Assembly (NCBI RefSeq): GCF_038051985.1 | Contig: NZ_CP150291.1 | Span: 3,968,001 to 4,032,000, forward strand | Length of the DNA stretch: 64,000 bases | From: Solibacillus sp. FSL H8-0523 | GTDB taxonomy: Bacteria > Bacillota > Bacilli > Bacillales_A > Planococcaceae | Reading direction: 5' to 3' | In this document: positions 13,916 through 31,796 of the stretch, piece after piece | Layout: the number at the start of each line of letters is the position of its first letter | How positions within the stretch are numbered: the first letter of the stretch is position 1 | The notes under the pieces: model-generated | Told to the model about the DNA's origin: nothing | Database searches by the model: none | What the model saw: only the letters and a program-made list of their open reading frames with translations | Translations under genes and position numbers: made by a program

Positions 13916-14438
13916 TTAGTTGAAATATAGCTTTAATAGTTTTTGTATTAGTAAATTATTTGTACTTTGTAGCTCAACAAAATATTCCAATTGCCATTTC
14001 TGTGTTTCAATAGCTTGCTTGCTAGTGGGATTTTCCCAGCTAGGGTAAACCCTAATTGCCATTTTCCCTTTGGTAGTAGCTGTTTTAATTATATTTTGTT
14101 TTAATTATATTTTGTTTTACAAGTATTTCTTTAGGAAAAACGAATTGTCCAAAACGATTATCAGTAAAAGTATTGATGACTAATAAATCCGTAGCTGTTT
14201 CATCTGAAAATGCTTGGTTTTTATTGTCCTCATTTTTTTCCCAAAAAGCAACAAACTGTCCGATCTTGGTGGGCGTTATTTTTGCAACCCTAAATCTAAC
14301 AGACTTCGAATTTAGATAAAATGTACCAGCCCCGTAATCCGAGTTTTGAACTTCTTGATGGACATCTTTTACGATTAAGTGATTAGGATCATATAACATT
14401 TTATTCACATAAGTTAACGCATTATAATATTCATTCAC
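13916..14438 (-). pseudogene. mepB: mepB-like gene, frameshifted by a 16-bp tandem duplication
   Basis: GTG 14438 with GGAGG 7 bp ahead starts a MepB-family protein (ALTYVNKMLYDPNHL, SDYGAGTFYLNSKSVRFRVA, KIGQFVAFWEKNEDNKNQ, NRFGQFVFPKEILVKQ). The frame stops at 14085. Removing one copy of a 16-bp repeat (14082-14113) restores the family C-terminus: TKGKMAIRVYPSWENPTSKQ, then QKWQLEYF, ending at 13916. MepB accompanies the MepRA efflux system in Staphylococcus; its function is unknown. Its upstream sequence was replaced by the Tn7-like left end, which probably removed its promoter. It is either dead or a very recent mutation. Confidence 0.85.
14082..14113. repeat. 16-bp tandem duplication inside mepB
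   Basis: Two adjacent perfect copies of GTTTTAATTATATTTT (14082-14097 and 14098-14113). The extra copy adds 16 bp and shifts the reading frame. Confidence 0.95.
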
Positions 14439-14445
14439 TACTTGC

Positions 14446-14450
14446 CCTCC
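14446..14450. repeat. Left 5-bp target site duplication (CCTCC)
   Basis: CCTCC directly abuts the left terminal TGT at 14451 and matches CCTCC at 29728-29732 abutting the right terminal ACA. Five bp is the Tn7-family duplication length. On the minus strand it is GGAGG, the mepB ribosome binding site. Confidence 0.85.
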
Positions 14451-14600
14451 TGTTGGATTGGAATAAAGATTGATTAAAAATGGGCAGAGAACGTAGATTC
14501 TATAATAGAAGAAACCCACATATTTTGAAAAAAGATTGATCAAATTGTGTGGGTTCAATTTTGGCGCGATGAAATTTTTATAAAAAAGATTGATCAAAAT
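14451..14600 (+). repeat. Left end of the Tn7-like element with three spaced TnsB-type sites
   Basis: After the terminal TGTTGGATTGG, three copies of AAAGATTGATYAAA occur at about 14466-14479, 14531-14544 and 14587-14600. They are spaced 56-65 bp apart, reminiscent of the three spaced TnsB sites of the Tn7 left end. Their core (AAAGATTGAT) differs from the right-end core (AAAGTTGTAC on the same inward reading). Confidence 0.75.
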
Positions 14601-14672
14601 ATTTCAATAACATTGATAGATAATTATTTTAGCGTTTCTGAACGTTTTTTCAGAGTAGAAAAATACATACAA

Positions 14673-14709
14673 AAACGCCATTAAGGCTAGCATTTCCTTA
14701 ATGGCGTTT
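14673..14709. terminator. Strong bidirectional hairpin inside the left end
   Basis: A 14-bp perfect inverted repeat AAACGCCATTAAGG / CCTTAATGGCGTTT with a 9-nt loop, flanked by A/T runs. It may shield the element from outside transcription. Confidence 0.7.
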
Positions 14710-14859
14710 CATAAAAAAGTGAAGTTAATAAATATAACATTAGAAATATGTAGGAATGACACTGATAAGTTATTGTGTATGCAAGATTACCAAATGCGAT
14801 GTGTATAGTACTATCCCCCTACCTTAGCTGTGTTTATTTAATATTGAACTAGAAGTCTA

Positions 14860-15087
14860 TCAACTAAGCCTAAATTGTAGAACTCGATGATTCAATTCTT
14901 CTGCCATTTTCGCAAGTTGGTTTGAGCTATTCGTCACTTCCTCCATTGTAGAAGAGGTTTGTTGCATCGTTGCAGATGTTTGTTCTACGCCAGCCGCAGA
15001 TTGTTCAGAGATTGCTGCAATTTCATCTACCGCCTTATCAATTTGTGTTGAATTGTTAACAATTTGCAGGAAACTGCTTGCCCTCAA
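14860..15087 (-). pseudogene. C-terminal fragment of a methyl-accepting chemotaxis protein
   Basis: The last 60 or so residues (STQIDKAVDEIAAISEQSAA, then GVEQTSATMQQTSSTMEEVT) are the distal methylation-helix region of a chemoreceptor, ending in HRVLQFRLS. Everything upstream (ligand domain, membrane helices, signalling tip) is missing. Homology stops near 15066, after which the sequence is unrelated. It lies inside the transposon left end, so it is a captured or stranded gene tail rather than a working receptor. Confidence 0.8.
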
Positions 15088-15134
15088 TTTTATGTTATTT
15101 TCGAGGTAATTTTAACAAAATAAAATTTTCTATA

Positions 15135-15163
15135 TTGAAAACACAACCAACGATGATTATAAT
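15135..15163 (+). promoter_or_regulatory. Sigma-A-type promoter for the first protease gene
   Basis: TTGAAA (15135-15140), 17-bp spacer, TATAAT (15158-15163), 75 bp ahead of the start codon. AACCAAC lies in the spacer and its complement GTTGGTT at 15190-15196. Confidence 0.75.
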
Positions 15164-15237
15164 TTCATATATTGGTAAATAGAATCTTAGTTGGTTAGAT
15201 TTACTCATCTATTGAAAAGTTGGAGAGTGAATATCGA

Positions 15238-16599
15238 ATGAAGTTACAAAAAGTATGGTTAATTGCTGGAATGATAGTATTTAGTTTGGTAACATCTATT
15301 AACGTGTCTGCCAAATCTGTATCATCCCTGGACCAAACCGATATATTAAACAGTAGCAACGATAGTACGGCTATGGTTACTGAAAGTTCAAAAATTCATG
15401 GACGTGAGATATATGGATTATCGACTGAAACATCTGTAATAAAGTCTTTGAAGACCGAGAATTACTATTCTAAAAAATACGGTATTTACATGTCGCCAAA
15501 TGAAGAAGCAAAATTAGAAGAACGGTTCGCAATTCAAGATAAAGTAGTTCCAAAATTAAAAGATGATGTTTTAGCTATGTACGGTCGTGATGCTTTTCTT
15601 GGAATGTATATTGATCAAAAAAATGGTGGAGTAGTTAATATTGCTCTTCGTAAGGGTACTCATACTCCATTAATAAAATCTGAAAACCTTATTGCAACTA
15701 AATATGGTTCAGATCTGCCAATTAATTTCTATGAGGCAAAGTATTCTGAAAGCGACTTAGATCGTATTATGGATGATATAAACAATAATATAGATATCTT
15801 AAGTAAACAGATAAACATTCAATATGCAAATGTCGATTTTATTAATCAGAAAATTACTGTAGGAATTAAAGATAATGGAACTCCTATAGCAGAGGCATCA
15901 AAAGTTATCAGTGATTTGCTAAAACAAGACGAAACATTATTTAATGTTAAAGTCGTTGACGAAAACTTCAAGACATCAGATGAAGCCAGATACACAACTC
16001 AATCACCTATTCTCAATGGCTTAGTAATCGATAGCTCAGCAGGTACACTTGGAAACTGTTCTGTTGGATTCTCCGCTATTGATTCAAGCTCTAATCCGTA
16101 TATTGTTACAGCAGGACATTGCTGGAGTTCATTGGGCACTGGTATTTATCAAGGATCAAATTATATTGGTCATGTAAGTAAGAGGCACTATGGAAATAAC
16201 GCAGATGCAGAAGCAATAGCTGTCTCTTCCAACACTTTATTAAGTAACAAATTATATGGAACAACGACATTATTAACAAGTGTACAAGTAGCAGGAAATG
16301 ATGTATTGGGTGAAAGAGTATGTAAGTCGGGTATGCATGGAGATTCGTGTGGAACACTCCTTGGGAAGAACAATAGTGGTTATTGGGGAGCGAATGATAC
16401 CTGGTTTGATAATCTTCGCGTTTCCAATTATGAAAGTTCTAGCGGGGATAGTGGCGCTACAATTTATGACGGTAAAACTCTCAAGGGTATTCATAAGGGG
16501 ACTTTGCCTGAAAATGGGGTAAACTATCGTGTATATAGTCATGTAACCAATGTTTCAAGCCGCCTTAATTTAACTCCTGTGAATTGGTTAAGCCAATAA
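15238..16599 (+). CDS. Secreted S1-family (alpha-lytic/streptogrisin-like) serine protease, cargo module 1
   Basis: 453 residues from ATG 15238 (GGAGAG 10 bp ahead). The signal peptide is KLQKVWLIAGMIVFSLVTSI and ends near NVSA. A pro-region of about 230 residues with a KYGIYMSPNEEAKLEER segment follows, as in proteases that need a cleaved pro-domain for folding. In the catalytic domain the triad is visible: His294 in TAGHC, Asp323 in NADAEA and Ser405 in SSGDSGA. Cysteine pairs around them (GNCS with AGHC, and ERVCKSG with GDSCG) fit two disulfides. The usual GDSGG is GDSGA. The product is likely exported and self-processed. The lipoprotein gene follows after 71 bp. Confidence 0.88.
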   Translation: MKLQKVWLIAGMIVFSLVTSINVSAKSVSSLDQTDILNSSNDSTAMVTESSKIHGREIYGLSTETSVIKSLKTENYYSKKYGIYMSPNEEAKLEERFAIQDKVVPKLKDDVLAMYGRDAFLGMYIDQKNGGVVNIALRKGTHTPLIKSENLIATKYGSDLPINFYEAKYSESDLDRIMDDINNNIDILSKQINIQYANVDFINQKITVGIKDNGTPIAEASKVISDLLKQDETLFNVKVVDENFKTSDEARYTTQSPILNGLVIDSSAGTLGNCSVGFSAIDSSSNPYIVTAGHCWSSLGTGIYQGSNYIGHVSKRHYGNNADAEAIAVSSNTLLSNKLYGTTTLLTSVQVAGNDVLGERVCKSGMHGDSCGTLLGKNNSGYWGANDTWFDNLRVSNYESSSGDSGATIYDGKTLKGIHKGTLPENGVNYRVYSHVTNVSSRLNLTPVNWLSQ

Positions 16600-16670
16600 T
16601 TAAAGCGAATTTTGTAACCTTTCGAAATATTAATACGTCTATAAGAATATAAATGAATGGGGGGAAACGT

Positions 16671-17075
16671 TTGCGCATACTACAAGCAACTGTCATTCTG
16701 TTTTTACTTTTCTCCAGTCTATCAGGATGTTCAAGCGGAGGGAACGATTTGAAAAGCCTTTCAAGAAACAAAGTAAGTGAACCGTCTAGCTTGTCGAATG
16801 AACCGATAGATACAGCTGATGTAGAAGGGTATATTATAGACAAAACAGAAGATTCTTTAACGATTGTATGGAATGTTCAACAAAAAGACATTACTACGAA
16901 AACTAAAAAGGAAATTCTTACTATTGCAAAACCCAATGCTTTGACTGTTCCCTATTCAAATGCTAGCAATTTTAATATTTACGATAAAGTAGCCATTTGG
17001 ACAACAGGCCGTTATGAAGAGTCATATCCTAGTCAAGGTGTTGCAACAAAAGTAATATTACTCCAAAGTAAATGA
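16671..17075 (+). CDS. Lipoprotein with DUF3221-like domain
   Basis: 134 residues if translation starts at TTG 16671, 6 bp after GGGGGG (an in-frame ATG at 16653 lacks an SD). The hydrophobic segment LQATVILFLLFSSLSGC ends in a lipobox with the acylated Cys about 20 residues in. The mature part has VEGYIIDKTEDSLTIVW and KVAIWTTGRYEESYPSQG, the pattern of small DUF3221/YobA-type lipoproteins, which look like OB-type beta domains of unknown role. It follows the secreted protease in the same direction, so it may be a surface partner, chaperone or protective inhibitor of that protease; this is inference. Confidence 0.75.
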   Translation: MRILQATVILFLLFSSLSGCSSGGNDLKSLSRNKVSEPSSLSNEPIDTADVEGYIIDKTEDSLTIVWNVQQKDITTKTKKEILTIAKPNALTVPYSNASNFNIYDKVAIWTTGRYEESYPSQGVATKVILLQSK

Positions 17076-17173
17076 ATAGTACAAAACTTTTTAAAAAGGA
17101 AAATAGTAATCTCAAGTGGGATTATTCTGAACTGCACGCTGTCAAGTAGACATTGAAAATAATAAAAATTGAG

Positions 17174-17217
17174 TTAAACGGCTTTAGCCCTACATTCTAT
17201 AGGACTAAGGCTGTTTA
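17174..17217. terminator. Bidirectional terminator between cargo 1 and the tnsA/tnsE remnant
   Basis: Imperfect stem TTAAACGGCTTTAGCCC / AGGACTAAGGCTGTTTAA followed on the plus strand by TTTTTTTT. It can serve both convergent units. Confidence 0.75.
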
Positions 17218-17832
17218 ATTTTTTTTGATAGCGGCTATTTGTAGATAAGCTACAATATACTTCCTAGGTGTAATATCATCATCTAAAAAGGAAAATGAAC
17301 GATCTTTGATATCCGTTAATGTTGGTTTGAAATAAAAACTCATTAAATTAGTCATGCAAATGTTGATTTTACAATAGGAGAAACGCACGAATTTTGAACA
17401 AAGAACTCGCTCATTTAAAAGCTCGTCCTTCATCTTTATCGTTCTCGCAAGCTCTATAAATCCTTGTCCTTTATCTACAGTAAGAAGAAAATCCGTTGTC
17501 ATTACAATCGGCTCATTCGTTTTGGGATCTGTAGGGTGTTTAAGACCTAATTCATCCGCAATAACTAGAGTTTCTTCCAAAGGCAACAAAGGAAACTATT
17601 CTCTAATACCCATAACGAAATCAGTGTATTCAGTTATATAAAAATAGTTACGTTCCAAATCTGATAGAAATTCATGTTGTCTATTTGTTTTAATACCTTT
17701 TAAACGTGTAGATCGACCTTTAGAAGAAACATCCTGAATATTTAACCACGGCTTATACTCTGCTCCTACTCCAGAGCCTCTACTTTCTCTAATCCATTTA
17801 TCAACTTTAGATATCCTAGTTCTTTTAGGCAT
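17215..17832 (-). pseudogene. Fused tnsA 5' part and tnsE 3' part: deletion scar of a second Tn7-like element
   Basis: From ATG 17832 the sequence closely matches the first 135 or so residues of tnsA at 28779-29618 (MPKRTRISKVDKWIRESRGS onward), with one CAG-to-TAG change (17593-17595) creating an in-frame stop. Homology ends after KMKDELLNERVL. About 25 unrelated residues follow, then LTDIKDRSFSFLDDD and ITPRKYIVAYLQIA, which match the C-terminal part of TnsE (near 21003-21080). A deletion of roughly everything from tnsA to late tnsE explains this. It cannot encode a working protein. Confidence 0.88.
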
Positions 17833-18322
17833 AAAAAACACTCCTTTAGATTATCCATTTGTACTTCATTTGCTTTTACAGCTTCACTATCCATAAGTAC
17901 CTCCTTAGCAAGTTGTATATTTTAAACTATTTTACCTAATAATACAATATAACCCAAATTGTGAACCGAAATTTTTTTTGTAATTGTTGGGCAGATTTTT
18001 GATTTAATGATATTTTAGTTGTTATTAAATTGCATGGATTTTATTTTATATTTAAGAGAAATAGTTTCGTTGTGATATAGCGATAATTTAAGAAGCCTTT
18101 GAATGGAGGTGAACAAATGCTACAATTTAGGTATAGGTAATTTGTTTTATGTTATATTTCCATTTAAAACCATTTCTTTGTATAAGTGGAGACTTTATGA
18201 TTATTTTTTACTTTTTTATAAATAAATAATACAATTATTTGTAAAAAATATTATAATATTATCTTGCGGGGGAATTAAGGTTTATTTTTGACGAGTTAAC
18301 TAATACATACTAAGGAGATCAA
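17833..18322. other. AT-rich intergenic region between tnsA remnant and protease 2
   Basis: Nearly 490 bp, very AT-rich. The first 20 bp upstream of the remnant match the corresponding bases ahead of the real tnsA, then similarity ends abruptly. Two tiny ORFs with strong SDs are present: minus-strand ATG 17894 (AAGGAGG ahead), which runs out of frame into the remnant, and plus-strand ATG 18118 (GGAGG ahead), seven codons only. No right-end repeats are recognisable here. Confidence 0.5.
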
Positions 18323-19618
18323 ATGAGAAAAAAAGAAATACTATTTTTAATATTAACATTTTTAATATTTTTAAATTATCCAATTAATACTTATGCAAAT
18401 ATCGATGACAAAGAAATACATAAACAAGCTGAAATTCGAAAGGTTTCTGGTTTAGCGACTGATTCAGACCATTTAATAAATACAATTCAAAATGAATTAA
18501 ATGCTGATATCTATGAAGAATATGGTATTTACGTTACTGATTCTGAGAAGAAAACACTTGAAAAGCTAGAGCAAATAGATAATTTTATACCTAGATTAAA
18601 CGAAATATTAGGATTTGAAACAGATAACCCTAATCAACTTGCTAGTTTTTATGTGGATTTTCCTAAGCAAAAAGTTTACATCAATTTCAATCAAAGAAAT
18701 GAAAAAACCTTATCAATGAAAGACACTGTTTTAAAGGAATTCCCTTATCCTAATTTAGTGAAATTTGACTTCAATTCATATTCAGAAAGTGATTTTGAAA
18801 CTCTAAAAGAAGAAATTAATAATGTAATTGAAACATATTCATCTAATTTAACAAACTCAAAATTAAGTGTAAATTATAAAACAAACAAAATTAATGTAGA
18901 AATATATCCATACGATCAAAAGCTTGTAAATCAGCTTAATAAAAACTTTCCAGGTTTAGTTAAAGTATCTGAAGGGAACGATTTTGATGAACAATCAAGA
19001 ACATCATTAACTAATTATATGCAGGGAGGTCTATTAATTTCCTTTAATAGGCAAGATAGTATAGATGGAAAATATAATTATTGTACTTTAGGTTTCACTG
19101 CAAAAAAGGGTAATCAAGAATATCTAGTAACAGCAGGTCATTGTATTATTGGTGCTTATAATGCAGGATCATCTTATTATTATCAAGGTGGTGAAATTAT
19201 AGGAGCGAACTCTTCGTATCTCCTTAATCAATATAATGATTCAGGTTTGATACAACTTACTTCATCAAAATATGCAACAAATAATATATATAAGTACAGT
19301 AGTAGAGATTCATCTTATACAAGTTATTCTTCATCTAAATACGTTGGCCAACGAGTATGCATCTCTGGGGCTACTTCTGGATTCCAATGTGGTGAAGTAG
19401 AGGATATTAATGCTCAATTTGATTACTATAGTGATGCGCTCGGAAAATGGATTACTGTAAATAGAATTGATGCATCCTATGCATCTGCAGGGGGTGACAG
19501 CGGTGCTCCAGTATGGTATTCCGGAGTTCTATATGGTGTTCATACAAATGGTGGCGGTGCATACAATGGTATTGGAACGATAGTTACAAATTTAGGTATA
19601 ACTCCTATTACCAATTAA
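18323..19618 (+). CDS. Secreted S1-family serine protease, cargo module 2
   Basis: 431 residues. The signal peptide is short (EILFLILTFLIFLNYPINTYA). A pro-region of about 220 residues shares layout with protease 1 (YGIYVTDSEKKTLEKLEQID, then SYSESDFETLKEEI). Catalytic triad: His273 in TAGHC, Asp306 in NDSGLIQL, Ser393 in GGDSGAP. Cys pairs flank the His and precede the Ser (RVCISG, FQCGE). The two proteases are clearly paralogous but far diverged in the catalytic half, so they are not a recent duplication. SD AAGGAG precedes the ATG. Lipoprotein 2 follows after 15 bp. Confidence 0.88.
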   Translation: MRKKEILFLILTFLIFLNYPINTYANIDDKEIHKQAEIRKVSGLATDSDHLINTIQNELNADIYEEYGIYVTDSEKKTLEKLEQIDNFIPRLNEILGFETDNPNQLASFYVDFPKQKVYINFNQRNEKTLSMKDTVLKEFPYPNLVKFDFNSYSESDFETLKEEINNVIETYSSNLTNSKLSVNYKTNKINVEIYPYDQKLVNQLNKNFPGLVKVSEGNDFDEQSRTSLTNYMQGGLLISFNRQDSIDGKYNYCTLGFTAKKGNQEYLVTAGHCIIGAYNAGSSYYYQGGEIIGANSSYLLNQYNDSGLIQLTSSKYATNNIYKYSSRDSSYTSYSSSKYVGQRVCISGATSGFQCGEVEDINAQFDYYSDALGKWITVNRIDASYASAGGDSGAPVWYSGVLYGVHTNGGGAYNGIGTIVTNLGITPITN

Positions 19619-19633
19619 TATAGAAGTAGGTGC

Positions 19634-20137
19634 ATGATGAAAATTAAGGCTATTTTAATTTCTCTTTTAGCATTAATGCTAGTTGCTTGTAATAACAGTG
19701 TTGAAAATACAATTACTCAGGATAAACCAAATAACGAACAACAGAATGACAAGCAAACAGTCGTTTCAAAGAAAGATGATTTTACGTTTACAATTACAAG
19801 TGATAAAAAAATATATTCCAAAGGTGAAAAAGTGAAAATCGAAGCAAACATTTTGTTTAGTGGAGAATCTTCCGAAGTAATAGTAAGTGGTGGAGGAAAT
19901 TTAATCACCTGGGAAGTTTTAAATGAACTTGGAGAAGAAATTAGCCCACGCTATTCGAGAGAGGATATTGCTCTTCCCTACACTTTTGCAAAAGGCGAAC
20001 CCTTCATACTAAAAACAACAGATATTGATACAACAGATTTAAACCCTGGTAAAATTACAGTAAATGCAACTGTTGAATTTAATCTAAATCAAAAAGACTA
20101 TAAGTTAAATAATAAATTAGTTTTTACTGTTAATTAA
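19634..20137 (+). CDS. Lipoprotein with immunoglobulin-like/proteinase-inhibitor-like beta domain
   Basis: 167 residues. The lipobox LMLVAC puts the acylated Cys at residue 19. A low-complexity Asn/Gln/Lys linker follows, then a beta-rich domain (FTFTITSDKKIYSKGEKVKI, then NPGKITVNATVEFNL). This pattern resembles BsuPI-type intracellular proteinase inhibitor domains and other Ig-like folds; I would not call it BsuPI without a profile search. It is translated right behind the secreted protease, which makes a protective or localising role plausible. It is not similar to lipoprotein 1. Confidence 0.7.
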   Translation: MMKIKAILISLLALMLVACNNSVENTITQDKPNNEQQNDKQTVVSKKDDFTFTITSDKKIYSKGEKVKIEANILFSGESSEVIVSGGGNLITWEVLNELGEEISPRYSREDIALPYTFAKGEPFILKTTDIDTTDLNPGKITVNATVEFNLNQKDYKLNNKLVFTVN

Positions 20138-20301
20138 ACTAAATCCCCCCACTTTTTCTTTCATACGTAAGAAGATTGCGCCTGGTATTTTCAGGTGTCA
20201 TCTTTTTCTGTGAATATAAATCTGTACTTGGTCTTTGAATAGATCCAGTCGAAATAGGAAAACCTAAGTATTGACCAAAAAAAGCCAGCAAGAAAGCAGA
20301 G
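20138..20301 (-). pseudogene. C-terminal remnant of an unrecognised protein
   Basis: In the frame shifted by one relative to the 20302-20646 gene, an open stretch reads IQSYLTTGSSAFLLAFFGQY, then LGFPISTGSIQ, and ends SGGI at TAG near 20143. It is open for about 65 residues from inside the neighbouring gene and has no start codon of its own. It may be the original C-terminus of that gene after a frameshift, or a separate decayed gene. Confidence 0.4.
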
Positions 20302-20646
20302 CTACCTGTTGTGAGGTAACTTTGTATAAACGCTTTTTACTTTGGGTAGACTAGTTTGTTTGTAAGCCCGAAATATAAAAAATAGTGTTTTAATATCGTC
20401 CACACTAAATTGTAAGTACTGCCATGTAACTCCAGCTTTAGAAAGCTTACTTTCTACCCCTAATTTTTCACATTGAACCGCCACATGGTGATCAATATGA
20501 TTTCCTTTTACCCACGCGTAAGCACCATGAACTCTTAGGTTTCGAGCAGCTTCTTTTCTTACACGTAGATAATCCTTATACCCCTCTATAATCCCATCAA
20601 CAATGCTTTCATTTAGTTCTCCTGACAAACGAAATTTTTTCATCAA
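20302..20646 (-). CDS. Small protein of unknown function, possibly frameshifted
   Basis: 114 residues: MKKFRLSGELNESIVDGIIE, then a basic DYLRVRKEAARNLRVHGAYA, then WVKGNHIDHHVAVQCEKLGV and FSVDDIKTLFFIFRAYKQTS. The His-rich DHH and an all-helical pattern stand out, but I recognise no family. It lies 97 bp beyond the tnsE stop in the same direction, at the end of the tns operon. Another open frame continues past its stop (see 20138-20301), so it may be the N-terminal part of a longer gene. Confidence 0.5.
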   Translation of the reverse strand: MMKKFRLSGELNESIVDGIIEGYKDYLRVRKEAARNLRVHGAYAWVKGNHIDHHVAVQCEKLGVESKLSKAGVTWQYLQFSVDDIKTLFFIFRAYKQTSLPKVKSVYTKLPHNR

Positions 20647-20743
20647 TAAACCAAGCCCCTTTGCATTTTATGGATAAAATCACAATAAAAAATGATTTTT
20701 CTTAATTATAATTAAAGTTTAAGTGTATTAAAAGGATTATTTA

Positions 20744-22269
20744 TTAAATGTTTAGTATTTTATTGAATACTGATGTTTTATAGTTACTGGTATGCTTTAC
20801 TTTAAAAATATTTAAGCTCTTTCCCCATTTAACCAAACCTTCTTTTAACCAGCTTCCCGAACTGAATATAATGTAGTTTAATAAAGGCTCAATATACCGC
20901 TTAACATTTGAACCATCTATTGGTGTAAGAATTAAAGTAGACACACTTCTCCCAGCTCGTTCAACTTCTAGCAATGCAACTTCTTTTCCATTCCTTAGTT
21001 TCACATATGCCACAATATACTTCCTAGGTGTAATACCATCATCTAGAAAAGCAAATGAACGGTCTCCTATATCAGTTAATTCGCCAACATATGCCTCCAC
21101 ACTATCTACAAAATAAGCTCTTGATAATTCATTTAACACTTCTTTAAAATCCGCTAATTCACCATTTACATATGTATTATTTAACGATTTAACTTCTAAA
21201 CCTCTTAATATATTTGTCCCGCCAATATCACCCATTGAACGTCTATTATTATCCATCTTGACTGACTTTTTAGTATTATCATCAATTCCATCACGTTGTT
21301 TTGTTGAAGTCGTTTTTTGGCGAGTAATTACTAGGGCATCTACGTATTCGTGAGTTAAAGTATCGGTTATTACCTCATCAAACTCATTTGTACGTCCATC
21401 AACTGTTGTATCGGCTTCGTAGTCTCCTGATGCAGAAAGGGGAAGAACTATACGTTTTCTTGGTTCGTTCGATTTTTCATGATGAACAAGGCTGGGATGA
21501 GTAATCTCTAAATTAGAAACCTGTAATTCTTTATCTAGCATCGCGTTGATATATAGAACTGTATATCCTGTTGGAGTTTTTTTCACGCGTAGCTTCAGTT
21601 TAATTGGTGTTTCAAATGGCCATTCAAACTTTATAGAGTTATAAAAGTGAAAATTACTAGCCATACTTTCATATACTTTACGAGCGTTCTTGTTCATTAA
21701 CAGCCATACTAAATGATGTAAATACTCATTCTTTAAATACTTTGCATTGTATGAAGAGGTGAAGCGTAATCGTAATAAATCCGACTCATATTCTTCTGTG
21801 AAATATAACGGGAAAGAGTTCATTTCAAACAAGCAATTTAACAGGAATGCATTAGGTGCAATCATTCCTCTCAGTACCTCAATTAAAGGTAGATAGAAAC
21901 GCTCTCCATTGTAGTTGATAACGAAAGTTTGCGATATTTCTGTATAGTTTGTTCCACGTATTGAATAGTTTTGTTCAAAATAACCAACGTAATTTGGATC
22001 TATTGAAATTATAATTTCTTCAGTTTGATTAGGTGCGATAGGTTTCGTAATAACTCCATCAACATAATAATGCTGGATTATTAAAGAAGTTAATACGGTC
22101 CAATCAACTATTAACTTTTCAGTTGTATAATACCCATTAACTTTTCCACTAAAATAAACTGGCAGCACGACTTTTTTTCGTATCTAAAAGGCGCACCGAT
22201 CCATTCTAATTTCACGCGTGCACCTTTATCAAACGGCCAAGATTTAAGCTTTATATCTTTGCTGTTCAT
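20744..22269 (-). pseudogene. tnsE: tnsE-like target selector, frameshifted in an A7 run
   Basis: ATG 22269 (SD AGGTGG) begins NSKDIKLKSWPFDKGARVKL, ending in GAPFRYEKKS; the frame is then lost. The rest reads LPVYFSGKVNGYYTTEKLIV to the end at 20744. One extra A in the A7 run at 22172-22178 would join them into a protein of about 508 residues, close to Tn7 TnsE (538). The C-terminal third (LTDIGDRSFAFLDDGITPRK, then LLEVERAGRSVSTLIL, SSGSWLKEGLVKWG) matches the TnsE C-terminal domain. In Tn7, TnsE directs insertion into conjugating plasmids and replicating DNA through the sliding clamp. Real mutation, slippery-site recoding or assembly error are all possible. Confidence 0.82.
22172..22178 (-). 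other. A7 homopolymer at the tnsE frame break
   Basis: Minus-strand GAAAAAAAG. Eight A residues would keep tnsE in frame, seven do not. It resembles the A-runs used for transcriptional slippage in several insertion sequences. Confidence 0.7.
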
Positions 22270-24085
22270 CGATTCCACCTTCCTGTATATATACCTCTAG
22301 TATTGGTTGAATTGTTTTAAAATCCTTTGACTTTATTCCTGCTAGCCTTTGAACACGCCATAATTTTACATCGCTCAATTCACACTTCAGATTATCAATG
22401 ATTTTACAGCACCGACGAATTTGAAATTGCTCCACACTTTCCGTAATTTGCTCAAGTAAACGCTTTGTAATAGGCAGCTGTTCTAAATATCTTTCAAGAT
22501 TGGCTAATATCCCTAAACGCTTCCCTAAAAGAGATGTTGTAATTCGAATAGGCTTCTCAGACGCCCACAATTGCTCATATAGCGTTTTAATTGCATTTGA
22601 ATATTGTATATCTCTTTTATTCCAATCAACCGTTTTCACCTCGTTATAAAGCTTTTGAGGGGCTGGTAATGTATTGAACAACCATTCTTTATCATGACTG
22701 TATAAATACATATATTCTTTTTGGTAAATTTTACGTAATTGAGTTCTACTTGATTGCGGATGCTTTTGCACAATTGCAATAAATTCAGCTTTATATGAAT
22801 CTAATTTTGATACTGTCATTGGAACCTTTTGCTGATCCTGTTTGAAAATTGGCGGTTCTAAATATTTTTTTACCGTTTTGGAATCTGCCCCTAACTCTCT
22901 TGCAATTGCTCGGATACTTATATTTCCACGTGAAAGATCGATTAATTTTTGATACCATACATGACCAAACTCTTTTACTCGACCTATCTTGAATATGTCT
23001 GTCGATTGTTTTCTTGCATAAATAAACCCACATGAGCACGTAAATGTGCCAATCAAATTTTTCGTTTTAAAATCCCTTGTTACATCTACATCTTGAATGA
23101 TGAACTGCTTGTAATGTTCTGCAGCTTTATTTAGACAAGGAAATGGGCCTGTACCAAATGCGCCTTGATCTGTTGAGGTAATTACCAAGCTCCCTATATC
23201 CTGTTGTAAAAAATGCATTAGAAATAAATGACGCAGGGGATGTACATGACGCTTAGAATTACGTGTTAGCACTTTCAGCCAGTTGTACTCATCAAATTCA
23301 CTTAGCTCGCTCTCATATTCTTGAAGAAAACCTGATGGAAAGGAGGATGCTACACCTTTATACAGTTCTTTCTGACGTACATGATTAGATGCTGTGATTA
23401 AATTACGCGCTCTCAATAAACTTCTGTATTTCGTACTTACAACTTCTCTCGAAAGTTCATGTATTGGTAGTTGTAGTAATTCATAAGCTTGTTTTGCTAT
23501 TTCAACAGCAATTTCCTTATAGTTATCTACTTCATAAATGGCTGTTAAATTCATATGTCTCATTTCAAAACGGACATATGCTATTCGGCTATCACTTTTA
23601 ATCGGATATTGGCGCAGTGGGATTTCGTGATTTGGACAATAATTGATGCCTTGTAACTGATGCTCTCTATGAATATATGGTTCACCATATTGCGCATTAT
23701 CGTCCTTAGCACATTCAGCACAATAATATAGACCATCCTTTCAGCAAATACTTCCGGCTACAATACCAAGTCTTGTATATAAAGCTTGTCCATCTTCTAA
23801 TACGTCCTGCAATATCTCTTGCTGCCGAGCTTCCGATAAAAATGAAGCATAGTAGGGGTAAATCGTATGATGAGCTAAAAGGGACTCAATGGAATACTGC
23901 GATCCCAATTGCTCAGCCAAGACGGAAAAATAACTACCAATCTCCACACTCGGTATTACAGAACGACTGCCAAACAACTCTTCTAAGGTGTCCTTACAAT
24001 CAATATTTCCACTGTAAAAATGATAACGGGCAATGGCTGAATACAACAATTCATTGGGATATGGATTTGGGAAGAAGGGTAGCAT
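22244..24085 (-). pseudogene. tnsD: tnsD/TniQ-like target selector interrupted by one in-frame TGA
   Basis: ATG 24085 (SD GGAGG, 7 bp) starts LPFFPNPYPNELLYSAIARY, the classic TniQ N-terminus. After about 114 residues a TGA (23741-23743) occurs in frame. The same frame continues at once with KDGLYYCAECAKDD, then EHQLQGINYCPNH, which is the family zinc finger (C-x2-C and C-x2-H), and runs on to 22244. In all it spans 613 codons plus stop, longer than Tn7 TnsD (508). A helix-turn-helix (IRAIARELGADSKTVKKYL) lies mid-protein, as in TnsD proteins that bind the glmS end. Without read-through no zinc finger is made. The 3' end overlaps tnsE by 26 bp. Confidence 0.85.
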
Positions 24086-24117
24086 TATATTACCTCCAAA
24101 AGTATTCATTTTCTGTA

Positions 24118-24933
24118 TTATTGACTAAGTTCCTCTAAGAAATATCTAATAAAATCTTTTCCAAACTTCGTCAACTCAAGTCTATCCTTAGATTTAAGTG
24201 CTAACTTTTTTAACGTTGGCAACTTGGATTTATTTTTCGGGTTCGTAGCCATTGACACAAACTTTTGTAATTCATTTATGGCCTTTTCTATCCCCTCTAA
24301 ATCTTTCTCTAAAATAATATCGGTTTTAGTAGTTAGTATCCCTTTTCGAACTAAGTTTTTCCGTATAGTTTCATATTGCTCATACGAGATGCCATGCATG
24401 TCCAAAACATCTTGATAACTATTCACCGTTTCATCTAATTCATTAAGATAATTCTTCCCATATAATTTCAACACAGTAAGATCTATAATTCTTAAATCTC
24501 TTAACATATCATAAAAAACTAGCACAAAATCTTCTTTGATTTTTTCATGTTCAGCTATATTCATGAAACCAGTCACCAAATATTTAATTTTCTCTTCTTG
24601 TGGTTCATCCTCTACATATCCAAGAACTAATTCATATAACCGGTCAAGCTCTTTCTTTTGCTCAATATTCTTTAAATCAAATATTTCAGCTAACCTCGTT
24701 ACTCTTTCAGATAATTGTTCTTCAAAAGTATTAAAGTTTCTTTGTAAACGCGATTGTTTGTAACTCATATAAGCATTGCCTACTCCTGGAATAAATGATG
24801 CCACAGCATCAGTAGCAATAGAACCTACCATACCTATGCCAGTTGATTTAACTACTTCAGCCCCTTGTGAACTAATAGCAGATAATACCGACTCGATTAC
24901 AAGTGGTTTTACAGTTTCTTTTTTCTCTACCAT
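24118..24933 (-). CDS. Unknown protein X inserted in the tns operon between tnsC and tnsD
   Basis: 271 residues from ATG 24933 (GATGAGG ahead; ATG 24954 is also possible). Residues about 25-60 form a Gly/Ala-rich weakly hydrophobic stretch (AEVVKSTGIGMVGSIATDAV, then SFIPGVGNAYMSYKQ). The middle is an acidic/basic helical segment (FEEQLSERVTRLAEIFDLKN), and the C-terminal half looks like a winged-helix layout (LDMHGISYEQYETIRKNLVR, then KGILTTKTDIIL, and a final helix FGKDFIRYFLEEL). I do not recognise the family. It is 23 bp after tnsC and 32 bp before tnsD, so it is co-transcribed. A role in target choice, immunity or defence is open. Confidence 0.65.
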   Translation of the reverse strand: MVEKKETVKPLVIESVLSAISSQGAEVVKSTGIGMVGSIATDAVASFIPGVGNAYMSYKQSRLQRNFNTFEEQLSERVTRLAEIFDLKNIEQKKELDRLYELVLGYVEDEPQEEKIKYLVTGFMNIAEHEKIKEDFVLVFYDMLRDLRIIDLTVLKLYGKNYLNELDETVNSYQDVLDMHGISYEQYETIRKNLVRKGILTTKTDIILEKDLEGIEKAINELQKFVSMATNPKNKSKLPTLKKLALKSKDRLELTKFGKDFIRYFLEELSQ

Positions 24934-24956
24934 ATCTAACCTCATCCCAATCATTT

Positions 24957-26645
24957 TTAGTAAAATTCAATAAATGGATTCTTAATATAATTATTTTTAA
25001 CTAACCCTTCATACGGGTGTTTCTTTTGTTTCAACGCACACTCTCTAATATCCAATAAAGGCAATATCTTATTAGCAGATACTACTTTCACTTTCTTTTC
25101 CTTAGCCTTCTCATTCAACTCGATTAAATTGGAAATGAGTTGAGCTTTGAGAGTGTTAGAATCTGTTTCTATCGGAAAATTTTCCACTACTTTTTTTGTA
25201 GCTTTCATGATTTCACTTGAAGTTAAAGCATCAAAAATACCGATTGCTGCAACTTCGCCGCTTAAACCTTCAATCAAATCTTGACGTTTGTACGCTAAAG
25301 TATTTTGGCGTTCTTTCATCGCTTCTTTAACTCGACCTTCATACTCAGTGCTTTGCTTGTGACTTTGCATTAACTCATCAAGATTAATCATAATATCTTC
25401 ATACTTATACATTGCAGCAAAATCATTATTACGAATGGCATTCAACATCGGCTGAATTATTTTCATATCTTCTTTTGCTGTTTTCTTTAAGACTCTCGTT
25501 GTCAATTTTTCATCTTCATTAGATTCATCATATAAAGCTCTCTCTTGGGCTAATATAAATAGATTGACAGCAACTGAAGTAATCCCCTGACATTCTTCAT
25601 AAAAAGTCTTTTTCACATCACCCGTGAGAGATGAATATGTTTTAAGGCACTGCAATTCCCACAATGTTTCTAAAAAGAAATCCCACTCCTCGCTTTCCTC
25701 ATCCATACGGTCCCAAATAATCGAACCATCACTAGCTGCACGACGTGCCTGACGAAAGTTTCCTTTGAATAATTGTTGCGCCTTAGATGTTCCTATTAGA
25801 ACTGTTGGGATGCCCACTGTATTAGATAATGTCACAAAAAAGTTAAGCATCTCTTCTTGATCATTTTTCGCATGTAATAAGTGTTGAATTTCATCAATCA
25901 CAAGCACACCGATGCCATACATACTTGCCAGTGATGTCATATGTAAAAGCATCGTTGACGTAACACGATTTAAATAGCCAAATTTCTCTAAGTAGCGTGT
26001 ACCTAGCAAATCATCAACGGCCTTAAAAAAACTTTTACAGAGTGTTGAAAGACTACCATCATAAGGACAATCAATCTTTAACCAGACAATTTGTGTACGA
26101 TTAAACGGCTGCTCTTTATATACTTCATGCTTTATCACTTGAGGATACATTAATAGCAATCGTTCTATTGCAGTTGTTTTACCGATTCCTGAGATTCCGA
26201 TTATCGATAAGCTATCTGCTGTCGAACGAATATGGTTTAATCGTTCATCAATATATTTATGAGCCTGTTCATCATCTTCGCGCAATTCATGTAGTAAACG
26301 AATTTTTTCAAAAAACGTTTTATCTAAAGGGTTTCTAGCTAAATAACCTCTACGGATTAACGTAGATAAACGGCGCTCTACTTCAAAATGAATTGGTAAT
26401 GGTTGAATAAAGTTCTTCACACGTTTTAACACGTGATAACGAATATTTGTATCACTTTGCTTGTCTTGTTCACTAATACGCGGTGTCACCATAAATCGGT
26501 CCAATACATCATCTTCACTAAAAATTGGCGGGAGAGCTTCAATAAAAGGATTTTGAGCATATTCAGGAAGTTGCTGTGACTTATAATAAGCTTCCTCCAT
26601 ATCGCCTTTTAAGACGACACTATTCATCTTTTCCAAATTGCTCAT
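24957..26645 (-). CDS. tnsC: Tn7-like transposition regulator ATPase TnsC
   Basis: 562 residues (Tn7 TnsC 555). AAA+ ATPase with Walker A GISGIGKTTAIERLL at about residue 145 and Walker B VLVIDEIQHLL, followed by the sensor-1 region PTVLIGTSKA. TnsC bridges the target selector (TnsD or TnsE) and the TnsAB transposase, and forms ATP-dependent filaments on target DNA. The first half also has a helical N-domain with FIQPLPIHFEVERRLSTLIR; the C-terminal tail is where Tn7 TnsC contacts TnsA. The gene overlaps the end of tnsB by 26 bp, indicating translational coupling. No defects seen. Confidence 0.92.
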   Translation of the reverse strand: MSNLEKMNSVVLKGDMEEAYYKSQQLPEYAQNPFIEALPPIFSEDDVLDRFMVTPRISEQDKQSDTNIRYHVLKRVKNFIQPLPIHFEVERRLSTLIRRGYLARNPLDKTFFEKIRLLHELREDDEQAHKYIDERLNHIRSTADSLSIIGISGIGKTTAIERLLLMYPQVIKHEVYKEQPFNRTQIVWLKIDCPYDGSLSTLCKSFFKAVDDLLGTRYLEKFGYLNRVTSTMLLHMTSLASMYGIGVLVIDEIQHLLHAKNDQEEMLNFFVTLSNTVGIPTVLIGTSKAQQLFKGNFRQARRAASDGSIIWDRMDEESEEWDFFLETLWELQCLKTYSSLTGDVKKTFYEECQGITSVAVNLFILAQERALYDESNEDEKLTTRVLKKTAKEDMKIIQPMLNAIRNNDFAAMYKYEDIMINLDELMQSHKQSTEYEGRVKEAMKERQNTLAYKRQDLIEGLSGEVAAIGIFDALTSSEIMKATKKVVENFPIETDSNTLKAQLISNLIELNEKAKEKKVKVVSANKILPLLDIRECALKQKKHPYEGLVKNNYIKNPFIEFY

Positions 26646-28782
26646 CTCGCTTTCTCTTCAATTTATCCATTAGACGTGAAGATGATTTCTTTTCTACCGT
26701 CTGCTCTAACTTTGTCCTAGATACAAAATCTATAACCTCTGTTGGCTGCTCAGCTATAGAAGAGGTAGGAGATAAATCAAATTTCTCTTCCTCACGATTC
26801 GCTTGCTTTTCATTGGTTTTATTCTCTCTAATTGCTTCTAGTTTTTCCTTTTTACTAGTCGGTTGATGCAATGCCTTTTTCTTCTTTTGCTCGGCTCCCT
26901 TAATAATTTGCTCCATCATTGCGTCTGCATTAATAGTCAACTGTACTTGCTTAGAACGTTCCTCTTCTTCTAACTCATTTCTTAATTGATGTTGGAAAAC
27001 AACATCCTCTAAGAAATCTAATTTATATTGCTGACTTGGCTCTAACAAAATACACGTTTCATAATCCATGCCATTATCATTCGGAATATAAATTTTATCT
27101 AAAGAACGTGGATCATACACAACCTCAATGCTTTTGTTTTTCAACTTGGCATACCACTGTTCTTCAATAGCACGTTTTGAACCATATAGTAAATTTTTAA
27201 ACTTAATACCTGCTCTTGAAATAGTTGCTTTCTCACGCGGTAGCACATTCAAACGCAGAATATTTCTATCTACTGTTCGCAAGCGCCCTTTGCGATTATG
27301 AATGCCCCAATTCCATAAGTTAATAGGTGTTGGTACAATTCCATCTGTAATCATTTCCTTTTCCATTGGATATTTATCAATGATTTTATGATTGTGTTGT
27401 AGCACCATCGTAATAATCAAAGAAGTGAATTCTTTTAAATTCAATGTAGCGTTTAACCTATAATCCATGTCTCCACGCTCTCGGTACTCCTTTTGAATAG
27501 CACCTGGCGCTTTTTGTTTCACTTTTCCGTTAAACGCCCTAAATTTACGCTCAACAATCCCTTTTAAATCACCACGATATGCTGTTGTATTTTCAATTTT
27601 GACATTCAAATTATTAATCAGCCCAGCTACTGAATATCCTTCAAATTCCCCTCGATCTGCAATGATAATTTCAGGCAAATGATTCGTCGGCCATTGCTCT
27701 TCTGTAATCTCAATATCATATTGCTTACAAAATTCAACCTTATCGGCTACCATGTTATCTAGTGCCATCATGGCACCTACCCATGATGGTCCCTCTAAGC
27801 CAACATAAACGCCCGTAATAATACGTGAATAGACATCTACGACTGCATAAACAACAGGTCTACTAATAACTTTATTTACATCAAAAGAGCTTACTAAATA
27901 AATATCCGCAGCTGTTGCATCAATTTGAAAGCGCGTCCCTGGACCATTTGTTTCTGCTTTAGAATTACTAATAAGCGGACGATGCTTTAACTCATATTCC
28001 TTAGCACTTTTACGAAACTCAATATCTTTTTTAGGGTCTTCAAACTTTTTGAACCAATAGTAAAACTGCTGGTAGGAGGGGATACGATTCGCTTCCCAAA
28101 TACGATACTGCAGCTCACCGTTTTCTTTATAACGGTCCGAATAAAAATCACGCAAAATAAAATGATAAACATCTTTTAATGAGTAGTTATTCGTTTTGCG
28201 GTAATATTTATTAATCGCATGTTCAAATTGTGTTTTAATCTCATCCGTTATATTAATACCACTTCGATATTCACCATTTACGGTTACTCTACGTGGTCGC
28301 CCAACCTTATCCTCACTTAGATTTTTTGTTTTTCCTCGACCACCTGAATTTGCATAATCAGGTAACATGGCATTTTTATTCATACCTCGCTGCCAATAGC
28401 GACTAAGTAACTTTTTAACCTTTGTTGGAGTAACATCTAACGTAGTTGCAATCTCTTTAATTTTTGTTTCTCTACCACTCTTTTGAAGCAATTTCTCCAT
28501 ATGTTGGGCACAGTTCGTTTGGATAATCTCCCAATCTGTATCACGCTTATAAATTTGAATTTCCGTTAATTCTTCTTCCTTTACTACACGTGCAAAGGGA
28601 TCTGTGACAAGCAGCCACTCTTTTTGCTCTATATCTGTCAATAACGATGAATAGAGCTCTTTTTTAGGCATAGATGTATTTGCATCAATATTGACGACAT
28701 AAACATAAGATTCCTCAATTTCAATAATACGAATACGAGTTGAATCTTTTACCGATTGAAGAACTTGATTAATATAAATCAT
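26620..28782 (-). CDS. tnsB: Tn7-like DDE transposase TnsB
   Basis: 720 residues (Tn7 TnsB 702). N-terminal DNA-binding region with a helix-turn-helix (IKEIATTLDVTPTKVKKLLS). The catalytic core of the rve/Mu type has Asp288 in FQIDATAADIY, Asp376 in IIADRGEFEG and Glu411 in GIVERKFRAF. A Mu-type beta-barrel and a lysine-rich C-terminal tail follow (residues about 620-720), the latter the expected TnsC contact. TnsB binds the end repeats and cuts and joins the 3' ends. It overlaps tnsA by 4 bp (ATGA) and tnsC by 26 bp. The product appears intact. Confidence 0.94.
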   Translation of the reverse strand: MIYINQVLQSVKDSTRIRIIEIEESYVYVVNIDANTSMPKKELYSSLLTDIEQKEWLLVTDPFARVVKEEELTEIQIYKRDTDWEIIQTNCAQHMEKLLQKSGRETKIKEIATTLDVTPTKVKKLLSRYWQRGMNKNAMLPDYANSGGRGKTKNLSEDKVGRPRRVTVNGEYRSGINITDEIKTQFEHAINKYYRKTNNYSLKDVYHFILRDFYSDRYKENGELQYRIWEANRIPSYQQFYYWFKKFEDPKKDIEFRKSAKEYELKHRPLISNSKAETNGPGTRFQIDATAADIYLVSSFDVNKVISRPVVYAVVDVYSRIITGVYVGLEGPSWVGAMMALDNMVADKVEFCKQYDIEITEEQWPTNHLPEIIIADRGEFEGYSVAGLINNLNVKIENTTAYRGDLKGIVERKFRAFNGKVKQKAPGAIQKEYRERGDMDYRLNATLNLKEFTSLIITMVLQHNHKIIDKYPMEKEMITDGIVPTPINLWNWGIHNRKGRLRTVDRNILRLNVLPREKATISRAGIKFKNLLYGSKRAIEEQWYAKLKNKSIEVVYDPRSLDKIYIPNDNGMDYETCILLEPSQQYKLDFLEDVVFQHQLRNELEEEERSKQVQLTINADAMMEQIIKGAEQKKKKALHQPTSKKEKLEAIRENKTNEKQANREEEKFDLSPTSSIAEQPTEVIDFVSRTKLEQTVEKKSSSRLMDKLKRKRDEQFGKDE

Positions 28783-29618
28783 CCGAATTTCACCTTCTTC
28801 AGCTTACTTTCGTCAATAGACTGAACGACAATAGGTTGTTCCACATTTAAAGGCTCTGACATATCTATTCGTATAATTTTCTGGGCAAGTAAATGATAAA
28901 ATAGTGTCATTCCGCTACCTAAAGGCATATGTGTTTCTTTAGCAAATACGTTTGTAATCTCTCTAATACTCTTGCTTTCATTTAAGATTCTTTGTAACAA
29001 TGCCATCGCTAAATCTTCAATATGCTGCTGATTTAGATTTTGAAAAGCGTCGTAGCTTTGAATATCATAATAATCGTGAATATAGCTAATGTTCCGCGCC
29101 ATTTCTTTTGTAATCTCTAATTCTGTTACGATACCCCAATCAATTTGCCGTCTTTCCCAGTAAACTCGCTCAATTTCAAATTTCTCAAGAACTCGCTCAT
29201 TTAACAGCTCATCCTTCATCTTTATTGTTCTCGCAAGCTCTACGAATCCTTGTCCTCTATCTACAGTAAGTAGAAAATCTGTTGTCATCACAATTGGCTC
29301 ATTCGTTTTCGGGTCTGTAGGGTGTTTAAGACCTAATTCATCAGCAATAATCATGGTTTCCTCCAACGGCAACAAAGGAAACTGTTCTCTAATATCAATA
29401 ACGAAATCCGAATATTCAGTTATATAAAAGTAATTTCGTTCTAAATCAGATAGAAATTCATATTGTCTATTTGTTTTAATGCCTTTTAAACGTGTAGAGC
29501 GACCTTTAGATGAAACATCCTGAATATTTAACCATGGTTTATAATTCGCTCCTACTCCAGAGCCTCTACCTTCTTTAATCCATTTTTCAACTTTAGATAT
29601 CCTAGTTCTTTTAGGCAT
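28779..29618 (-). CDS. tnsA: Tn7-like endonuclease TnsA
   Basis: 279 residues from ATG 29618 (AAAGGAGTG ahead), matching Tn7 TnsA (273). The N-terminal nuclease domain has a FPLLPLEET strand, Asp in MTTDFLLTV and a terminal ELARTIKMKDEL strand, the probable E/D/K set of a restriction-enzyme-like fold. The C-terminal part is helical with a winged-helix look (SKSIREITNVFAKETHMPLG). TnsA cleaves the 5' ends, enabling cut-and-paste movement together with TnsB. First gene of the tns operon, starting 43 bp from the innermost right-end repeat. A decayed paralogue is at 17215-17832. Confidence 0.92.
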   Translation of the reverse strand: MPKRTRISKVEKWIKEGRGSGVGANYKPWLNIQDVSSKGRSTRLKGIKTNRQYEFLSDLERNYFYITEYSDFVIDIREQFPLLPLEETMIIADELGLKHPTDPKTNEPIVMTTDFLLTVDRGQGFVELARTIKMKDELLNERVLEKFEIERVYWERRQIDWGIVTELEITKEMARNISYIHDYYDIQSYDAFQNLNQQHIEDLAMALLQRILNESKSIREITNVFAKETHMPLGSGMTLFYHLLAQKIIRIDMSEPLNVEQPIVVQSIDESKLKKVKFG

Positions 29619-29660
29619 AAAAAAACACTCCTTTAGATTATAGTAATCCAAAGGAGTGAA

Positions 29661-29727
29661 ACGGTGCAACTTTATTCAAAACGGTACATCTTTTTTAAAA
29701 ACAGTACAACTTTATTTAAAATCTACA
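29661..29727 (-). repeat. Right (glmS-proximal) end: three contiguous 20-bp TnsB-type sites plus terminal ACA
   Basis: Head-to-tail 20-bp units at 29661-29680, 29681-29700 and 29701-29720 with consensus ACRGTRCAWCTTTWTTNAAA, then ATCT and terminal ACA. Tightly packed sites are characteristic of the Tn7 right end. The tnsA promoter must lie in or next to this array, so TnsB could autoregulate it (inference). Confidence 0.85.
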
Positions 29728-29732
29728 CCTCC
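29728..29732. repeat. Right 5-bp target site duplication (CCTCC)
   Basis: CCTCC directly follows the terminal ACA and matches 14446-14450. Confidence 0.85.
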
Positions 29733-31640: not shown

Positions 31641-31796
31641 AATCCGATTTCCTCCGGTACATGCATACATCCCTTTTTGGCAATAGCAAAGTAGACTACG
31701 AAATCTACCTTTCTCGCAAAATATGGCGATTGCTCTCGTTTAGCAATGCTCCCATAAAAAGCCCAAATTAAAAGGTGATGTAGCTCGTCAATTTTT

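Follow-up and report, generated by a model that had tools for sequence, protein, structure and literature searches.

A mosaic Tn7-family element 113 bp downstream of glmS

Tn7 and the element behind glmS

Tn7 carries its genes in the order tnsA, tnsB, tnsC, tnsD, and tnsE between TGT and ACA termini. Excerpts of earlier work describe ends with several TnsB sites, a 5-bp duplication, and a right end oriented towards glmS (PMC2918618, PMC11406308), with the insertion placed about 20 bp from the glmS stop in an excerpt of the former (PMC2918618). The window, meaning the whole 64-kb stretch of DNA analysed here, holds a Tn7-family element of 15,277 bp (14451-29727) with CCTCC flanking each side. 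As in Tn7, the five tns families are all present and identically ordered, the TGT/ACA ends each have several TnsB-like sites, there is a 5-bp duplication, and the right end points towards glmS, but the element lies 113 bp from the glmS stop rather than at the distance excerpted for Tn7 (PMC2918618). It also differs from Tn7 in its damaged tnsD and tnsE, in an extra gene between tnsC and tnsD, and in the different tails of its left and right TnsB-like sites. Island BCEGI-1 of Bacillus cereus ATCC 10987, in which two tnsABCD gene sets lie behind glmS according to an excerpt of its published description (PMC2359905), is another element in another species, and it is likened to the window through that description and not through its sequence. 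The main features of the locus are as follows.

14446..14450, no strand: left CCTCC copy of the duplication, GGAGG preceding mepB on the opposite strand
14451..14600, - strand: outer left end with TGT terminus and TnsB-like sites at 14458, 14524, and 14578
20744..22269, - strand: tnsE, early frame change at an A run, start set by hand; 511-aa open copy in the relative G013
22244..24109, - strand: tnsD (TniQ and TnsD) with in-frame TGA at 23741-23743; intact copies elsewhere
24118..24954, - strand: 278-aa protein between tnsC and tnsD, without confident family (weak Abi_alpha, PDC-S47)
24957..26645, - strand: tnsC, by family and best solved match
26620..28782, - strand: tnsB, by family and best solved match
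28779..29618, - strand: tnsA, likely ATG at 29618; open frame extends to 29669
29659..29727, - strand: right end with ACA terminus at 29725-29727 and TnsB-like sites at 29659, 29679, and 29699 (20 bp apart)
29728..29732, no strand: right CCTCC copy of the duplication
29841..31670, - strand: glmS, the target gene, with its native terminator between stop and element

The initial annotation called this a Tn7-like element, which is borne out by the tns families, by Tn7 as the source of the best solved matches, and by the ends and duplication. Family matches were found for TnsA_N (4.8e-20), TnsA_C (3.9e-16), TniB (1e-12), TniQ (4.7e-08), TnsD (1.2e-92), and TnsE_C (2.9e-13), with TniQ and TnsD detected on two pieces of the window tnsD. 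The best matches among solved structures were Tn7 TnsB (1.3e-108), TnsC (7.4e-83), and TnsA (6.4e-38), as well as Tn7 TnsD (5e-31) for the intact TnsD of G013, while TnsE had no match among solved structures. TnsB has candidate D-D-E motifs starting at residues 285, 373, and 409, and TnsC has Walker-like motifs at 150 and 247, both following what we take to be the usual patterns. Among the features of glmS-targeting TnsABCDE elements, we found TnsA with TnsB, TnsC, TnsD with TniQ, TGT/ACA ends, the 5-bp duplication, and the orientation; we did not find an intact tnsD, an intact tnsE, or a distance of about 20-25 bp between the glmS stop and the insertion. We are highly confident that this is a glmS-homing TnsABCDE-type relative of Tn7 and a mosaic of newer right two thirds and an older left third. 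By analogy with Tn7, the arrays at each end would be bound by TnsB, which together with TnsA would cut at the TGT/ACA termini; TnsC and TnsD would deliver the element behind glmS with the tnsA end towards the gene, leaving the 5-bp duplication.

No confident Cas match was found among the element proteins scanned for a CRISPR-associated transposon; one protease matched cas14 at 15.9 bits, far under the cutoff of 800, and TnsB matched the type V-K TnsB model (5.7e-17), as expected of a TnsB relative. The Tn5053/Tn402 family is not known to have TnsA, and TnsA is present here. When plasmids were searched for the right two thirds, five records matched in part at 80-90%, each over less than 80% of the query, and one Exiguobacterium plasmid has an annotated tnsE and no tnsABCD in a 29.9-kb stretch with an incomplete gene table.

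Mosaic structure and damaged genes

The initial annotation had also described a complete transposon in which five features of Tn7 occur together. The tnsABC, TniQ/TnsD, and TnsE families, the ends, and the duplication are all present; the set is not intact, however, and with an in-frame stop in tnsD and a frameshift in tnsE, the transposon is not complete in function. Nor is it one clean element, as it encloses fragments of tnsA and tnsE and, besides the outer left end, an inner one. These are found in the left third, which contains the following features.

14866..15067, - strand: fragment with matches in several genomes, whose sequence resembles, by eye, the tail of a methyl-accepting chemotaxis gene
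15220..16599, + strand: cargo, serine-protease-like protein (weak Peptidase_S39, 2.1e-4)
16653..17075, + strand: cargo, DUF3221 protein, by eye lipoprotein-like
17122..17233, - strand: probable insertion-sequence end remnant, IS3 type by eye
17236..17320, - strand: tnsE fragment, 82% to 20996-21080
17319..17402, - strand: degraded inner left end, from an older element
17401..17854, - strand: N-terminal part of tnsA from an older element, with no right-end array
18323..19618, + strand: cargo, trypsin-like serine protease (Trypsin, 3.9e-8)
19634..20137, + strand: cargo, by eye lipoprotein-like, without confident family
20302..20646, - strand: cargo, truncated RmrT / spr1630-family toxin (257 aa in G013)

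In G013, the stretch equivalent to 17122..17233 overlaps the end of two transposase-like ORFs. The tnsA fragment, inner left end, and tnsE fragment mark the left third, on sequence grounds, as an older, dead element. The outer left end of these Tn7-like remains now acts as the left end of the whole, and the right two thirds are a recently shared element. Internal sequence retained in a relative that lacks tns genes had been named as evidence against the borders, and G014 nearly fits this description: close behind glmS it has the outer left end (95%) and window 15541-17838 (98%), with no tnsB match and tnsA as a fragment only. We read this stretch as a probable decayed sister element, which therefore demonstrates mosaicism and does not break the border.

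A near-identical sister copy, from another species, is found on contig JAGHSJ010000177.1 (L105). It lies 25 bp downstream of a glmS stop and matches window 29727 to 20131, with four substitutions over the 9,597 bp. Although the contig bears the label Candidatus Kurthia equi, there is a second glmS in its bin, and across 1,918 bp its own glmS region shares 99.06% identity with the empty site of G009, from the window's genus; we therefore read the contig as probably mis-binned. The mosaic is not seen in this copy because the contig ends at window 20131, with its left end beyond the contig, and no close match to the left third was found elsewhere in the bin. Like the window, the sister copy has the tnsE frameshift (the A-run length was read in these two); unlike the window, besides its distance from glmS, it lacks the TGA and has an open tnsD, as does G013. 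The tnsE frameshift predates the tnsD stop, which arose in the window lineage after the split from the sister copy. With tnsD and tnsE both broken, present activity of the window copy is doubtful, and because the tnsD stop was added to an already frameshifted tnsE, the copy is probably now fixed unless helped by another element. The G013 element (same genus; L033/L034) has a TnsB 94% identical to that of the window, the same ends, and an old tnsA fragment, whereas it lies 25 bp from glmS with tnsD and tnsE open. It further differs in having an isoleucyl-tRNA-synthetase-like gene (by eye) between tnsC and tnsD, a full-length RmrT-like cargo gene where that of the window is truncated, four right-end sites rather than three, and 5-bp flanks without a match.

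Borders, ends, and the mepB junction

At the left edge, TGT at 14451 directly follows CCTCC at 14446-14450, and at the right edge ACA at 29725-29727 is followed by CCTCC at 29728-29732; CCTCCTGT and ACACCTCC each occur once on the + strand of the window. The match of L105 with the window starts exactly at 29727 and runs inwards. Among the family-wide matches listed, 20 of the 30 covering the left end begin at 14450 or 14451 (tallied by hand), and in the aligned outer left ends the shared sequence stops at the same ACA. Exact 5-bp duplications flank six of the seven elements with both ends read, the window element included; for this tally the ends of G041, G066, G064, G052, and G040 were paired by orientation and distance, the tandem ends of G014 were excluded, and the left flanks of L108 and G013 were read alongside. 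The exact borders, the CCTCC duplication, and the tnsA-side end facing glmS, all proposed initially, hold up at this locus: the borders through the start of the L105 match at 29727 and the stop of related left ends at 14451, and the duplication through the comparison with relatives.

Each end holds three TnsB-like sites, as predicted from repeats. Under a matrix derived from them, the six score 21.7-27.5 and the rest of the window 13.6 or less; since the same sites trained the matrix, it is this separation, and not the scores themselves, that carries information. The site tails differ between the left and right ends, and a left end derived from an unrelated element was considered and dropped, as the same asymmetry occurs in G013, G041, G066, G064, and G052.

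Because GGAGG is a common ribosome-binding sequence and directly precedes mepB, the CCTCC pair could be a coincidence, the left copy belonging only to mepB and the left border having been made by deletion, and both the mosaic nature of the element and the unequal flanks of G013 would agree with this. We consider it improbable, given that the left terminus falls on the same base in 20 of the 30 matches listed, that five of the six other elements with both ends read have exact duplications, and that a chance match at the second flank is expected about 1 time in 1000 from the 58 + strand CCTCC in the 64-kb window. It is more improbable still, to the point of being negligible, that the true mobile unit is a shorter one bounded by the inner left end at 17319. 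That sequence has the same CCAACA terminus, but its TnsB-like sites are degraded and the five bases beyond it are TTAAC as against GGAGG at the right flank; with no matching duplication, we rejected it as the true border.

An empty glmS-terminator-GGAGG-mepB junction had been predicted in relatives, and from it a clean reconstruction of the empty site; the junction was absent from the relatives examined, and the reconstruction is not borne out. mepB lies beside glmS in 0 of 15 other genomes of the genus and is present in four of them, far from glmS or on another contig. It has matches in 73 of 261 genomes, and in the returned loci, checked for glmS about 1.5 kb each side, one other case of mepB near glmS was retrieved (G173), where mepB forms part of the cargo that follows a Tn7-type right end. 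The exact glmS-mepB junction had 0 matches among viral contigs, and no same-species empty site was found.

Distance from glmS

The insertion lies 113 bp past the glmS stop, beyond the native terminator and about 88 bp farther than most relatives measured: 22 of 25 elements lie at 24-25 bp, in a tally that leaves out some more distant right ends met in relatives. Of 32 rows, five were contigs already counted under another name, as recognised by their equal lengths, giving 27 elements, and G060, G057, and G042 were left out because the stretch fetched held no glmS stop. The total of 25 includes the window (113 bp), L123 (135 bp), and the later-added G173, whose right end lies 202 bp after the stop, and the 22 include G066 (by eye), G040 (TAT terminus), and G077 (a second candidate at 15 set aside). 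In L123, a foreign right-end remnant occupies the usual point.

The displaced position may reflect recombination or deletion that followed an insertion made either next to mepB in another place or behind a glmS at the usual spacing, with the terminator left between; we give this slightly less than an even chance. In G001, G002, and G014, the three relatives with the genes left of mepB (11155-13292) and glmS on the same stretch, these genes lie about 31-37 kb from glmS and mepB has no match there, which shows rearrangement of the left neighbourhood. Moreover, in G173 mepB adjoins glmS as cargo behind a right end of the same element family, and the glmS site is a graveyard of elements. Such a history is opposed by the need for GGAGG to have survived at both borders and by a spacing of terminator and glmS close to that of the empty G009 site. 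The same observations would suit a direct insertion, in which the Tns proteins, guided by TnsD at the end of glmS, would have inserted the element about 88 bp past the usual point. The Tn7-like orientation close behind glmS and the 5-bp duplication exactly here point the same way, as does the stretch from the stop to the right end, which keeps the native terminator at nearly its G009 distance (within 2 bp by eye), has no second right end, and contains no second glmS-end-like target in its 113 bp (best 16 of 36, where shuffles average 16.0). Against direct insertion stand the 24-25 bp of the 22 elements, the reported role of the TnsC ring in setting the distance from glmS (PMC11406308, in excerpt), and the other displaced cases, L123 with its remnant and G173 at 202 bp; we consider it possible and rather unlikely. 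We are slightly more doubtful of a wider reading, namely that homing to glmS is not locked to one distance and that the element's own machinery, through an extended TnsC assembly or a TnsD complex that slipped, placed it past the terminator before tnsD was lost.

For a Tn7-like element of the Kurthia/Lysinibacillus family, the locus supplies borders exact to the base together with a near-identical sister copy, and it indicates that dead elements accumulate behind glmS and lend ends and cargo to newer elements. The 88-bp offset is the one point that may matter beyond cataloguing, because the TnsC ring reportedly sets the distance from glmS (PMC11406308, in excerpt).

Borders and tns genes of the element

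The exact borders assigned to the Tn7-like element in the initial annotation held up: CCTCC at 14446-14450 is followed by TGT, and at the other end ACA is followed by CCTCC at 29728-29732. The + strand of the 64-kb window contains 58 copies of CCTCC, and the chance of matching the second flank is about one in a thousand. Sequence repeats in the window reveal three TnsB-like sites per element end, and a matrix trained on the very six sites that it then scores finds nothing near their scores elsewhere in the window. At 33.6%, the G+C content of the element is lower than in both measured flanks (40.4% and 37.6%). On the right, the match of contig JAGHSJ010000177.1 (L105) to the window starts exactly at 29727 and runs inwards as far as 20131, the end of the contig. 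Relatives of the left end are present in many genomes, and by manual count 20 of the 30 rows covering it among the matches listed begin at window base 14450 or 14451. When the left ends of G013, Kurthia zopfii (L108, the same contig as G041), G066, G064, G052 and G040 are aligned, they agree as far as the same ACA and diverge beyond it. Among seven elements read at both ends, the 5-bp duplication is an exact repeat in those of the window, G041, G066, G064, G052 and G040, and the 5-bp flanks of the G013 element do not match. This count leaves out G014, whose ends lie in tandem (two left and at least two right).

The tns genes had been described as a complete Tn7 set, which is accurate for the families, as TnsA, TnsB, TnsC, TniQ/TnsD and TnsE are all present, but not for the reading frames of tnsD and tnsE. 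The first four were identified by Pfam and a solved-structure search, and TnsE by Pfam. The best solved matches of TnsA, TnsB and TnsC are Tn7 proteins, as is that of TnsD when the intact G013 copy is searched; a solved-structure search with TnsE of G013 found no match. In the window, tnsA, tnsB and tnsC are open frames, tnsD has one in-frame TGA (23741-23743, a position open in L105 and G013), and tnsE has an early frame change at a run of A that is common to L105, versus a 511-aa frame in G013. Both TnsD and TnsE selectors are already described in passages of PMC10293859.

Cargo inside the tns operon varies at the gap between tnsC and tnsD: in the window this slot holds a 278-aa gene, and in the G013 element (L033:7045-10251) a long, reversed gene that by eye resembles isoleucyl-tRNA synthetase. 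A toxin gene of the RmrT / spr1630 family adjoins tnsE, truncated in the window (20302-20646) and 257 aa long in G013 (L033:14095-14868). Another tnsE relative, with 89% DNA identity to that of the window, lies on the mobilizable Exiguobacterium plasmid pEYLC1.1 (L197:14335-15861), with annotated macrolide resistance genes downstream and no annotated tnsABCD in the stretch shown. Defence genes and nested mobile elements have been published as cargo of such elements (PMC8649781); no publication on the window element was found by title or abstract in the open-licence literature. Outside the element, 5348-7310 and 43954-45763 are probably rRNA operons; these two long stretches share a match, at 95-97%, to a single relative sequence.

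Position of the element behind glmS

Prototype Tn7 inserts approximately 20 bp downstream of the glmS stop, a distance attributed to the TnsC ring (PMC2918618 and PMC11406308, respectively). The right end lies 24-25 bp from the glmS stop in 22 elements, at 113 bp in the window, 135 bp in L123 and 202 bp in G173. Distances to the tnsA start agree: for most rows in which tnsA is at least 60% identical they are 151-155, with 135 in L105, whose array is one TnsB site shorter, 85 and 92 in G040 and G203 (short arrays), 242 in L123 and 223 in the window; in rows with a more distant or second tnsA they spread up to 14,852. In L123 a foreign right-end remnant occupies the usual insertion point: L123:8923-9165, between glmS and the right end of a second element, looks like a lone right end, hairpin included, from another Tn7-like family. 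The gap in the window holds the native terminator at nearly the same spacing as in the related genome G009, and no second target-like sequence was found in it. 

The left third and the mepB side

The island had been regarded as one complete transposon, and this is only partly correct. The left third contains a scar of tns sequence:

within 17236-17854, tnsE fragment, 82% identical to window 20996-21080
17319-17402, degraded inner left end, within the 17236-17854 scar
within 17236-17854, tnsA fragment, 89-91% identical to full tnsA, without a right-end array

The outer pair of ends acted as one unit, because GGAGG is found on both sides of this pair and the TTAAC at the inner end is unmatched. 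The scar is flanked by two gene pairs, each with a protease-like and, by eye, a lipoprotein-like gene. G014, which has no tnsB match, contains at its own glmS a 98% copy of window 15541-17838 and a 95% copy of the outer left end, with another right end immediately after. As read from sequence, the simplest history would be that an older, dead element once lay beside the newer one and that the parts between them were lost, so that the newer element may now use the left end of the older. Two tns sets in an island behind glmS have been reported before (PMC2359905).

The proposed empty site, an uninterrupted glmS-terminator-GGAGG-mepB junction, was not seen in 15 other genomes of the genus or in the mepB loci examined, and the duplication is the only basis of that reconstruction. 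mepB has a match in 4 of the 15, either at a great distance from glmS or on a different contig, and among 33 loci with a match (including two of the window itself and two that are one place) only L096 of G173 also has glmS. mepB is itself probably a leftover of an older element, because in G173 no gene stands between it and a four-site right end of the same family, and because the genes to its left in the window (11155-13292) are separated from glmS by approximately 31-37 kb in G001, G002 and G014. Of these neighbours, the first is far off or on another contig in nine further genomes and has no match in three. The mepB frame stops early in the window, at 117 codons versus 169 in G173; at 14000-14440, beside the left border, it looks frameshifted, with the lost tail readable by eye further left after a short repeat. 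In G173 (L198:1412-5600), glmS is followed by this four-site right end, which lies at +202, then by four cargo genes of which mepB is the first, then by sites of both end types near 5498-5586, with mepB and the others accompanied by no tns gene among the ORFs by eye; this looks like a non-autonomous Tn7-like element.

A sister copy and transfer between species

L105 differs from the window element by four substitutions in 9,597 bp, with length unchanged, and in L105 the distance from the glmS stop to the element is 25 bp. Beyond the border, the glmS regions of L105 and G009 are 99.06% identical over 1,918 bp, and the G009 site is empty. The contig is labelled Candidatus Kurthia equi, but we take its source to be a G009-like species in the same genus as the window, because the bin contains a second glmS (73.5% identical to that of the window and accompanied by a separate Tn7-like element) and has a stated contamination of 8. 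As the glmS regions of the window and G009 share 84% alignment identity, the element has crossed between species very recently.
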